This document shows, piece by piece, positions 21,864 to 25,461 of a DNA stretch of 36,539 nucleotides. Both the position numbers and the translations under genes were made by a program. Where the stretch lies: the NCBI GenBank assembly GCA_016181585.1, contig JACOYX010000007.1, forward strand, positions 1 to 36,539, written 5' to 3'. This DNA is from Candidatus Sungiibacteriota bacterium. Its GTDB lineage: Bacteria > Patescibacteriota > Minisyncoccia > Sungbacterales > HO2-52-23. A model generated the notes under the pieces. That model saw only the letters and a program-made list of their open reading frames with translations, did not search any database and was not told the DNA's origin. Positions within the stretch are counted from its first letter, which is position 1; every line of letters begins with the position of its first letter.

Positions 21864-22418
21864 ATGGATTTGCCCGCGCCCGAACAAATTGATATGCTCG
21901 CCGAAGGCAGAAATGCGTGGATGGAATATACTAATTTTGATCAAAGCGGTAAATATAAAGACGAGCATTTGGCTCTTTCTCACTTTATACTCATAGGAGA
22001 TATACTCTGCTGCATGCGCGGAGAAGTGATAATGGCGCTCCATTGCGCAGAAAACGGACTTCTGCCGCTTACCACGGACGACGAAATTGCGGCATTCGTT
22101 TTGCAATTGCAAAAAATAGGAGAATATGATTTTAGCGAAGGAATGCTCGAAGATTGTTTATGCGAATTGCATTATGACTATGAATCAAATTCTATGCAAA
22201 AAGCACTGGCACAAGCTGCGAAATCACTCAATATGAGCGTAGAAGAATATGAAGAAATAATACACAAACCTGTTATGGAAAAAATAAATGCGGGATACTC
22301 TTTGTCTCCTGAAGATGAAGCAGAGATGCACGCGAGCAACGCAAAAAGAGAACGTATTGAGAATGTATTAGAAAAAGTGCTCCAGATGCATCTTGATCGT
22401 GTAAAAAGCGGCACTTAG
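21864..22418 (+). CDS. Hypothetical acidic protein (184 aa)
   Basis: ORF with SD AAGGAGAATAG. Confidence 0.65.
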   Translation: MDLPAPEQIDMLAEGRNAWMEYTNFDQSGKYKDEHLALSHFILIGDILCCMRGEVIMALHCAENGLLPLTTDDEIAAFVLQLQKIGEYDFSEGMLEDCLCELHYDYESNSMQKALAQAAKSLNMSVEEYEEIIHKPVMEKINAGYSLSPEDEAEMHASNAKRERIENVLEKVLQMHLDRVKSGT

Positions 22419-22437
22419 GAACCACCCTGTTAAACCA

Positions 22438-22467
22438 AACCTCCTCTGTGCAACAGAGGAGGTTTTA
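22438..22467 (+). terminator. Intrinsic terminator
   Basis: AACCTCCTCTGTgcaACAGAGGAGGTTTTAT. Confidence 0.75.
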
Positions 22468-22469
22468 TG

Positions 22470-22722
22470 GGTCTCCTGCCGAATAGCACTTATGAGCTAC
22501 AATTCCATAAATTCTGGCGAATCATATAGTGATTCGCGGGAAATTTAGCGAAGCCGGGTATTCCAGTGCGAAGCGTAAAATTTCCCCGGCTTTTGCTAAA
22601 GGAAGCAAAAGAATTTTCCAAAAAATTTCTTGGCTTACCTTGCAGGCAGGCCGCAAAATTTGTGTGAGTATTTGCCTCGAATTTCTTAAATTTCGCGACG
22701 TAGGGTATTCGGCAACAGTCCC
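22470..22722. mobile_element. MITE-like family 1 copy E with about 95-bp internal insertion
   Basis: GGGTCTCCTGCCGAATAGCACTTATGAGC...GTATTCGGCAACAGTCCC; relative to copy A an extra segment begins near gcgaatcatatagtgattcgc. Confidence 0.8.
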
Positions 22723-22729
22723 TTAGAAA

Positions 22730-22944
22730 TGGGTGTGCCTGGATTCGAACCAGGAACCGGTCGTGTATACTAAACGTATAACTGGTTCGCTCGGAAAAAA
22801 TACAAATGTCGGTCCGGGAGGATTCGAACCTCCAACCCCCCGTGTATAAGACGGATGCTCTGCCATTGAGCTACGGACCGCCACTTACATTTTCCCCTCG
22901 CTGCCAGTTATAAGACGACTGCTCTGCCGTTGAGCTACACACCC
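22730..22944 (-). tRNA. Interrupted tRNA, tRNA-Ile(UAU)-like, with about 143-bp insertion in the anticodon loop
   Basis: 5' half GGGTGTG TA GCTC AACGGCA GAGC A GTCGT CT(TATA); 3' half (TATA)C ACGAC CGGTT CCTGG TTCGAAT CCAGG CACACCC A; acceptor 7/7 and anticodon stem 5/5 complementary. Confidence 0.75.
22809..22880 (-). tRNA. tRNA-Ile(UAU)-like, complete, lying inside the insertion of the flanking tRNA
   Basis: CGGTCCG TA GCTC AATGGCA GAGC A TCCGT CTTATAC ACGGG GGGTT GGAGG TTCGAAT CCTCC CGGACCG A. Confidence 0.88.
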
Positions 22945-23041
22945 TATCCTTAATTTGTACTGTTTTTTAGCGCGAAACACAACCACTCAGAGCAACCTGG
23001 GCGGTTTTAAATATTCACTTTGATATTGTCATTGCGAAAAG

Positions 23042-23116
23042 TGAGATTGCTTCGCTAACGCTCGCAATGACAACCAACTTCTGTCATTGCGAGGCGTACT
23101 CGCCGAAGCAATCTCA
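23042..23116. repeat. 75-bp dispersed palindromic repeat (REP-like), copy 1
   Basis: TGAGATTGCTTCGCTAACGCTCGCAATGACAACCAACTTCTGTCATTGCGAGGCGTACTCGCCGAAGCAATCTCA. Confidence 0.95.
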
Positions 23117-23395
23117 TACCTCCGACAAATCTTTAAATTCAGGATTTATTTCCTGTATAAGTAAAATTTTCTTTTTTCTCGATCCACCTTTGATTTTCTT
23201 TTCAGCAACAATCGCTTCTTCGGCCATGGGAAACACAGCATAATATACCAATTTATTAACATTGTATGCGGCGGTAAATCCAGGAGTTATTTTATTTTTG
23301 TGCTCACTTATTCTTCTCTGAAGATTATTAGTCACACCTGTATATAAAACAGTATTACCTTTATTGGTTAGAATATAGACATAGTACTGCTTCAT
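23114..23395 (-). CDS. GIY-YIG nuclease domain protein (93 aa)
   Basis: YYVYILTNKGNTVLYTGVTNNLQRRISEHKN, typical single-domain GIY-YIG protein. Confidence 0.93.
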   Translation of the reverse strand: MKQYYVYILTNKGNTVLYTGVTNNLQRRISEHKNKITPGFTAAYNVNKLVYYAVFPMAEEAIVAEKKIKGGSRKKKILLIQEINPEFKDLSEV

Positions 23396-23501: not shown

Positions 23502-25319
23502 TTATTCCTTCACTATCTTATCAAACTCCTCCCGCTCGATGGTTTCTTGTTTAATCAAGAGATTGGCAAGCTCGTCGAGTTTTGCACGGCGCCTCGTCAA
23601 AATATCGTGTGCTTTTTTTTGCGCGTCATCAATAATTTTTTTCACTTCTTGGTCAATCGTGCGCGCGGTTTCCTCCGAATAATTGCGCTGTGTCGTAAGT
23701 TCTCTGCCCAAAAACACCATCTCTTCGCGCTCCCCGAATGACAGGGGTCCTAGCTTTTCTGACATCCCGAATTGCATCACCAAACTCCGCGCGAGTGCCG
23801 CGGCTTTGCGTAAGTCATCGTGCGGACCTGTGGTTACATCGGCAAACACCAGTTTCTCCGCCACAAAGCCGCCAAGGGCTGATGCGATTTCATCCAGAAA
23901 ATGCGCCCGTGAATACATATGCCGGTCTTCCGCGGGAAGCTTGAGCGTATATCCCGCCGCGCGGCCGCGGGATACTACTGAAACTTTATGCACGGGGTCT
24001 GCGTGCGGAAGAGATGCCGCCACCAAAGCATGCCCCGACTCGTGAAACGCGGCGATTTTTTTCTCATCCGTCGTCAAAAGGCGGCTTTTGCGTTCCGGTC
24101 CCAAAATTACTTTTTCAATAGAATTGATCAAATCCATCTGCTCCACTTTTTTTCTATTGCCCCGCGCCGCCACAATCGCCGCTTCGTTTACCAAATTCGC
24201 CAAGTCCGCGCCGGAAAACCCGGGGGTACGCTCTGCAATTACATGCAAATCCACTTCTTCCACAAGCGGTTTATTTTGAGTGTGAATTTTTAAAATTTCT
24301 TCACGGTCTTTCAAATCCGGCAAATCAAGCACCACGCGGCGGTCAAAGCGTCCTGGGCGCAAAAGCGCGGGATCCAAAACATCCGGTCGGTTGGTGGCCG
24401 CCATTACGATCACGCGGTCATCGGTCTCCATCCCGTCCATTTCAACCAAAATCTGATTGAGCGTCTGCTCCCGCTCGTCGTGCCCACCGCCAAGCCCTGC
24501 GCCGCGAATACGGCCGATGGCATCGAGCTCGTCGATGAAAATAATCGCCGGGGCGGCTTTTTTGGCAAGACGGAAAAGATCGCGCGTGCGCGATGCGCCT
24601 ACACCCACAAACATTTCAATAAATTCTGATGCCGACATATGGAAAAACGGCACCCCTGCTTCTCCGGAAACGGCTTTGGCGAGCAGTGTTTTTCCCGAAC
24701 CCGGCGGGCCCATAAGAAGCACTCCTTTCGGAATTTTGGCGCCTATGTCCAAAAACTTCTTCGGGTTTTTCAAAAAATCAACAATTTCAATCAACTCTTC
24801 CTTCGCTTCCTGCACACCAGCAACATCTTTAAACATTACCCGCTCCTTTTTATTTTCAGGATTTATCAGGCGCGCGCGGGACTGGCCAAAGGTAAACGCC
24901 TGCATAGACCCCCGCTGGACTTGCCGCGCGGTAAACCAGATGAAAAAACCGATCAAAAGCACGGGTCCCAGAATGGGCAAAATGATGCCGAAAAATACAT
25001 TCGAAAAATCGCGCGATTTGACGGTAATCGGCACTTGGCGGAGTTTTTCCTGATCCACGCCATAATTTCGCAGGGTCTCGGTAATACCCGATTCGAGTTC
25101 TTTTTCCGCAGTTATCTCTTCATTATTTTTTAATTTTATTTCAAGCGTCGTATCTACAACATTGATTTGGGCCACCTCTCCCGCATTTACTTTCATCGCA
25201 AGTTCGGAAAGCGAAAGTTCCTTTTTTTCCTTAAATTCCCCGCTCACGAGCGAATACATCACTGAGATGGAGAATAAAATGATAAGCACCCAAATAAAAT
25301 TTTTTGTAAAGTTTTTCAT
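23502..25319 (-). CDS. ftsH: ATP-dependent zinc metalloprotease FtsH
   Basis: [57 protein letters not shown]; start at [10 protein letters not shown] (25319). Confidence 0.97.
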
Positions 25320-25461
25320 ACCCAAAAAGACTAACACAAATAAAGCCATACTGCAAGAAATACTGTAATATCCCCTAGAATTTAGCAAATAATAACGCAT
25401 GGCTGTCATTGCGAGACATTTCGGCACTCCGAGAAACCGAGATAATCACATTTCTCGATAA

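Follow-up and report, generated by a model that had tools for sequence, protein, structure and literature searches.

On the minus strand of the window (the whole 36,539-nt stretch of DNA analysed), an intact tRNA-Ile(UAU) gene at 22880–22809 lies within the anticodon loop of a second, split tRNA-Ile(UAU) gene at 22944–22730. The arrangement is real and recurrent. The insert is probably a miniature palindromic (MITE-like) mobile element, the cognate tRNA cargo of which replaces the split host tRNA. The open-access literature yielded no previous description of nested tRNAs in bacteria, subscription papers being outside the search.

The 5′ half of the outer tRNA (22909–22944, minus strand; 5′ to 3′, GGGTGTG-TA-GCTC-AACGGCA-GAGC-A-GTCGT-CTTATA) extends from the acceptor stem to the anticodon loop CTTATA. 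The 3′ half (22730–22769, minus strand; TATAC-ACGAC-CGGTT-CCTGG-TTCGAAT-CCAGG-CACACCC-A), extends from the loop sequence TATAC to the discriminator A. The halves pair perfectly in the acceptor (7/7) and anticodon (5/5) stems, as the preliminary description had stated, and also in the T (5/5) and D (4/4) stems; all of these pairs are Watson–Crick. They are separated by an insert of 143 bp, about 70 nt of which lie outside the inner tRNA; it contains no ORF. The ends of the insert are complementary (TATAACTGG/CCAGTTATA). It consists of a palindromic left arm (22881–22908, minus strand; ACTGGCAGCGAGGGGAAAATGTAAGTGG), the inner tRNA at the hairpin tip (22809–22880, minus strand) and a right arm (22770–22808, minus strand; CATTTGTATTTTTTCCGAGCGAACCAGTTATACGTTTAG). 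A 4-bp direct repeat, TATA, is present at both junctions; its left copy (22909–22912, minus strand) corresponds to anticodon loop positions 34–37 and its right copy is located at 22766–22769 (minus strand). The inner tRNA is a full-strength gene, with an Rfam RF00005 score of 69.7 bits at 22809–22880 and an ARAGORN assignment as Ile(UAU), anticodon tat; it alone is called by both programs and the outer tRNA is uncalled. The nesting itself, the complete inner UAU tRNA and the insert of about 143 bp with complementary ends and TATA at both junctions had all been described beforehand and are all borne out. Over 72 positions, the inner and outer tRNAs show 18 differences. The 212-nt minus-strand sequence folds with an energy 4.95 sd below that of dinucleotide shuffles, none of 200 shuffles being as stable; in the predicted fold, the anticodon arm of a tRNA is lengthened to a long hairpin with the second tRNA at its top.

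The window is contig C11 of a Patescibacterium genome (G000; 867 kb, 31 contigs, 86% complete). The inner tRNA is the only tRNA-Ile seen among the 41 tRNA matches of this incomplete genome, five long matches (83–89 nt) being unread, and tRNA-Ile(GAU) may be absent from the bin. The order on the minus strand is ftsH (23502–25427), a small GIY-YIG gene and then the nest. The closest relatives of ftsH, 69–77% identical, are found in Sungbacteria and other Patescibacteria, with the Sungbacteria homologues nearest. In Paceibacteria, tRNA-Ile(UAU) lies downstream of ftsH in most of the Patescibacterial loci examined, often followed by tRNA-Val, and is usually single and uninterrupted. Since the association of tRNA-Ile(UAU) with an upstream ftsH is conserved in Paceibacteria, the nest occupies the native tRNA-Ile(UAU) site. 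A whole nest is present at the same site in G069 and at locus L004 (a contig identical in G017 and G738), and partly decayed nests are present in G018 (3′ half gone) and in G007, G010 and G066 (5′ half gone or broken). The preliminary description had named expression of the inner tRNA only, together with decay of the outer halves in relatives (a pseudogene), as an outcome that would speak against it; decay is seen in the latter four genomes, and the outer gene is whole in the former two cases and in the window. The outer gene is best read as displaced, decayed in many relatives and intact in the window, where the arms of the element have drifted, yet the outer tRNA has not. In an attempt to date decay and insertions, outer decay did not correlate with arm divergence (rho −0.01); arm divergence therefore gives neither a date for the insertions nor proof that the outer genes are neutral.

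The surroundings of the nest have features of their own. The gene just upstream (23114–23395, minus strand) is GIY-YIG endonuclease-like. Other inverted-repeat families (GGGACTGTTGCCGAATA...TATTCGGCAGGAGACCC and TGTCATTGCGAGCG...GAAGCAATCTCA) occur at 22400–22730 and 22990–23120; the former is also found in locus L113 (2650–2730), and G000 is rich in small palindromes. On contig C23 of G000 (L113, 2723–3658), a tRNA-Pro gene and a YraN-like gene lie between two inverted palindromic copies of about 140 bp with GAAACCCCGCACTAAATTTCGAC ends, possibly a composite able to mobilise a tRNA.

The arms of the nest belong to dispersed palindromic repeats. Window-type ends GGCAGNGAGG...CCGAGYGAACCA occur three times in G000, in the nest and in two tRNA-free copies; GGCAGNGAGG, from the left arm, is common to the tRNA-free copies, and CCGAGYGAACCA, from the right arm, recurs without a tRNA at C12:18248 (CTTATC...CGAAG-TATC) and C6:12093. 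A further tRNA-free window-type copy is found in G004 (CTTATA...TATA), with related copies in G007 and G022. The direct repeats are TATA/TATA at the window and TATC/TATC or TATA/TATA at the tRNA-free copies; the best preserved of the latter sit in CTTATC...TATC and CTTATA...TATA, and CTTAT is the anticodon loop sequence of tRNA-Ile(UAU).

A second arm family, TTCA-CCCCGTTAGA...TCTAACGGGG-TGAA, has 22–63 matches in five of six nest-bearing genomes and 5 in the sixth, against 0–2 per genome in a reversed-sequence control. The matches are mostly inverted pairs about 30–130 bp apart with variable interiors; in G115, 12 of the 21 copies read have identical 4-bp flanks. None of 36 nested CCCC-type copies has equal 4-bp flanks, and these copies are therefore not simple transposition products; they possibly originated by recombination between element copies. 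Different tRNAs of one genome tend to have the same arm family, which is what an element active in that genome would produce and not what an inherited intron would. Among other copies of the second family, one palindrome in G115 (L318/L330) has a GIY-YIG gene as its entire cargo, and in G040 (L323; C2:14100–16400) repeat ends lie inside the starts of type IV pilin-like genes, TCTAACGGGGTTTACC encoding the LTGFT that precedes the prepilin cleavage motif. Palindromic elements without a tRNA are also nested in elements of the same family (L155, 2242–2430; L325; L304).

A non-exhaustive search found no autonomous parent with the same ends, and no free tRNA-bearing cassette was found outside a cognate tRNA. 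A 1.8-kb inverted pair of CCCCGTTAGA in G040, considered as an autonomous element, contains pilin-like genes and no transposase. Ten of 13 nest-bearing genomes have Y1 transposase (Y1_Tnp) genes, and G017, G040 and G312 lack them; none of the five Y1_Tnp genes examined is flanked by element ends, and Y1/RAYT transposases were rejected as the mover on both grounds. Matches in a phage collection reflect ordinary tRNA similarity.

Similar nests were sought by the spacing of D-arms, since D-arms separated by less than about 70 nt are too close to belong to tandem tRNAs. The pattern was matched in 57 of the 384 genomes of the class, about 46 of which were judged genuine on reading, and in 41 of 380 genomes of a phylum sample; it was devised after the first cases had been seen and required TAGCTYA D-arms, so that these counts are a survey rather than a blind test and underestimate the nests. 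The nested arrangement, for which the preliminary description had proposed a search in related genomes, was read at 74 loci in Patescibacteria, other classes of the phylum included. The outer 3′ half is kept (acceptor at least 6/7, T stem at least 4/5) in 40 of the 74, a foreign acceptor attaining 6/7 by itself in 11%, and the outer tRNA is perfect in the acceptor, anticodon and T stems in 22. The isoacceptors of 78 loci are Val (22), Ile-UAU (19), Thr-UGU (14), Ile-GAU (7), Arg (5), Thr-CGU (4), Met (4), Ala (2) and Lys (1); tRNA-Gly within tRNA-Gly (L162) and tRNA-Pro within tRNA-Pro (L326) were recognised by eye. L090, L142 and L192 have insertions outside the anticodon loop, either in the T loop or in the variable region. 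The outer 3′ halves of L136, L143, L159, L163, L164, L176 and L184 have one or two extra hairpins in the T loop (TTCG-[hairpin][hairpin]-CGAATC), a pattern suggestive of a second hairpin element that targets T loops. In 249 Pseudomonadota genomes the pattern was matched in 10, with no nested tRNA; the matches are tandem tRNAs, coding repeats and two 5′-end duplications without a 3′ half. In the last (L255 and L256), the 5′ end of a tRNA is exactly duplicated some 64 bp upstream of the complete gene; these are unlike the nests.

The inner and outer tRNAs are cognate. Their loop positions 33–35 are identical in 55 of 78 loci, compared with 13.2 (maximum 24) when the inner tRNAs are permuted; in the remaining 23 loci the junction mostly lies before position 35, and a few are decayed. 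No clear non-cognate nest was seen among the 78, the isoacceptors agreeing wherever readable. Double or triple nests occur at L160 (Ile), L175, L178 and L179 (Val), and L197 and L241 (both Met). In these ‘Russian dolls’, two 5′ halves precede the inner tRNA and, in most of those in which the contig continues, two 3′ halves follow it.

The most probable course of events at the window can be outlined as follows. An element with a complete tRNA-Ile(UAU) at its hairpin tip would have hit the native ftsH-linked gene at CTTAT, between the TATA repeats. The host tRNA would thereby be split and AUA still be read by means of the cargo tRNA, the element acting as both target breaker and replacement. Persisting insertions would be cognate nests because a cell could survive a hit on a single-copy tRNA gene only if the element brought a cognate copy, and Russian dolls would be the expected outcome of later, repeated insertions into the sole intact copy. 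We infer that the element was inserted as a unit and that the inner gene is the working copy. The preliminary description had offered two readings, a novel tRNA-containing intron and a transposed cassette that destroyed the host tRNA. The latter is supported: the arms are ends of dispersed palindromes that occur without a tRNA in the same genome, 4-bp repeats stand at the junctions, outer tRNAs are broken or half lost at the ftsH locus of relatives, and the isoacceptors match. The former is not supported as a general explanation, as is discussed below.

It is also conceivable, with a distinctly lower probability, that the inner copy was formed in place: a plain palindrome entered the loop, and slippage, or recombination with sister or imported DNA, filled its tip, so that tRNA and arms never moved as a unit. 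The cargo is cognate across tRNA kinds with one arm family per genome (G115, G208, G040 and G104), and nested CCCC-type copies lack the 4-bp repeats, both of which fit such an origin; so do the inner tRNAs of L197 and L199, which are identical to the outer ones, and several other nests in which the D-arm and anticodon stem are identical. The window copy, however, has a 4-bp repeat, and identity between inner and outer tRNAs of the same locus (0.81) is barely above that across genomes (0.75). In addition, among intact tRNA-Ile genes, those of G059 and L009 are closest to the outer tRNA of the window, and those of G238 and of G011, a member of the same family, to the inner one; the relatives compared in families f31 and f37 mostly represent different genera and not strains. 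With 18 differences and different nearest relatives, the inner tRNA of the window is no recent duplicate of the outer one. Since the window copies differ and those of L197 and L199 are identical, inner tRNAs seem, from sequence comparison, to arise by both import and local duplication.

An intron is improbable. Under this reading the insert is an extended anticodon arm from which the inner tRNA is cut out and the halves are joined, two tRNA-Ile molecules coming from the locus; the spliced outer RNA would join CTTA/TATA to TACACGAC without the insert. The perfect outer halves of the window and of 22 of the 74 loci agree with this, as does the predicted folding of the insert as a single long arm. 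In Ile, Arg and some other nests, precise removal would leave a normal loop, as the insert is placed either exactly at the boundary of loop positions 35 and 36 or with a TATA repeat on each side. Mismatches in the arms of window-type (Ile) elements lean towards G-U over A-C, with very few counts; over the whole set they are 40 G-U to 41 A-C, so that conservation of the arms as RNA stems is not general, and RNA-level selection on them was rejected for the set. In tRNA-Thr and tRNA-Val, the junctions are imprecise, and the outer loop or stem would remain faulty if the insert were taken out (3 nt too short or 2 nt too long). The T-loop and variable-region insertions, and the many outer tRNAs without one half or with further T-loop hairpins, also argue against splicing, and a cognate tRNA cargo is not required of an intron. 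The ligase search, which covered RtcB in 14 nest-bearing genomes, found it above the cut-off in three, and not in G000 (86% complete) or the complete G004. No Rfam intron was matched in the window. An archaeal-type bulge–helix–bulge intron was rejected, the internal loop being 4×3 instead of two 3-nt bulges and RtcB being mostly absent; so was a group I intron, as only tRNA matched Rfam in the window, with no catalytic core, and the insert is too small. The window copy might conceivably be spliced, judging by an outer tRNA that would be perfect after precise removal. That nests are doubly functional, the insert being taken out at the RNA level (or by precise DNA excision) and the inner tRNA being a structured intron, is equally doubtful; one locus would then give two tRNAs with the same anticodon and different bodies.

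An assembly artefact, in which fragments of two tRNA genes were joined through palindromic repeats, is very unlikely: the arms are repetitive and the genomes mostly metagenome bins, but cognate nests recur in dozens of separate assemblies and on large contigs, in a conserved ftsH or Tyr-tRNA neighbourhood, and one, in tRNA-Thr (L106), is carried by the single-contig complete genome G004.

The mobile element proposed here resembles several known systems. MITEs and repeat palindromes, including Rickettsia palindromic elements, are short inverted repeats present in many copies and inserted inside genes; 4-bp flanking repeats occur at many of the plain copies described above. To our knowledge, no MITE or palindromic element has been described that carries a tRNA gene and sits in the cognate tRNA gene. 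Bacterial group I introns occur in tRNA anticodon loops, a location shared with the nests, but their cargo and position rules differ, and apart from the inner tRNA the nests have only about 70 nt. Introns and permuted or split tRNAs of archaea and eukaryotes also interrupt the anticodon loop, and archaea have multiple nested tRNA introns and a box C/D RNA in a tRNA-Trp intron (PMC4090602, PMC3978253, PMC3218864). In contrast, the nests are non-archaeal, with variable junctions, a cognate tRNA cargo and no bulge–helix–bulge seen. Islander integrative islands target tRNA genes, the anticodon loop and T loop being among their attachment subsites, and the DNA that they bring in restores the gene that they split (PMC4383910), as the cargo of the window element would. 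Islands, however, bring an integrase and no more than part of a tRNA, and an intact gene and a displaced fragment are left at their ends (PMC4383910), whereas the window element, of about 140 bp, lacks genes of its own and has a whole tRNA at its centre and two displaced halves. It works like a target-restoring integrative island at the smallest scale; having neither an integrase nor a gene-restoring fragment, it is not one.

If this reading is correct, the nests would represent a minimal self-rescuing mobile element, which disrupts an essential tRNA gene present in single copy and itself provides the substitute. Such an element would be hard to lose, as without the inner gene there would be no working tRNA while the outer one is split. 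It would renew tRNA genes in reduced genomes and would explain the stray tRNA fragments in Patescibacterial genomes, and the stacked layers of the Russian dolls would provide material for studying tRNA replacement.
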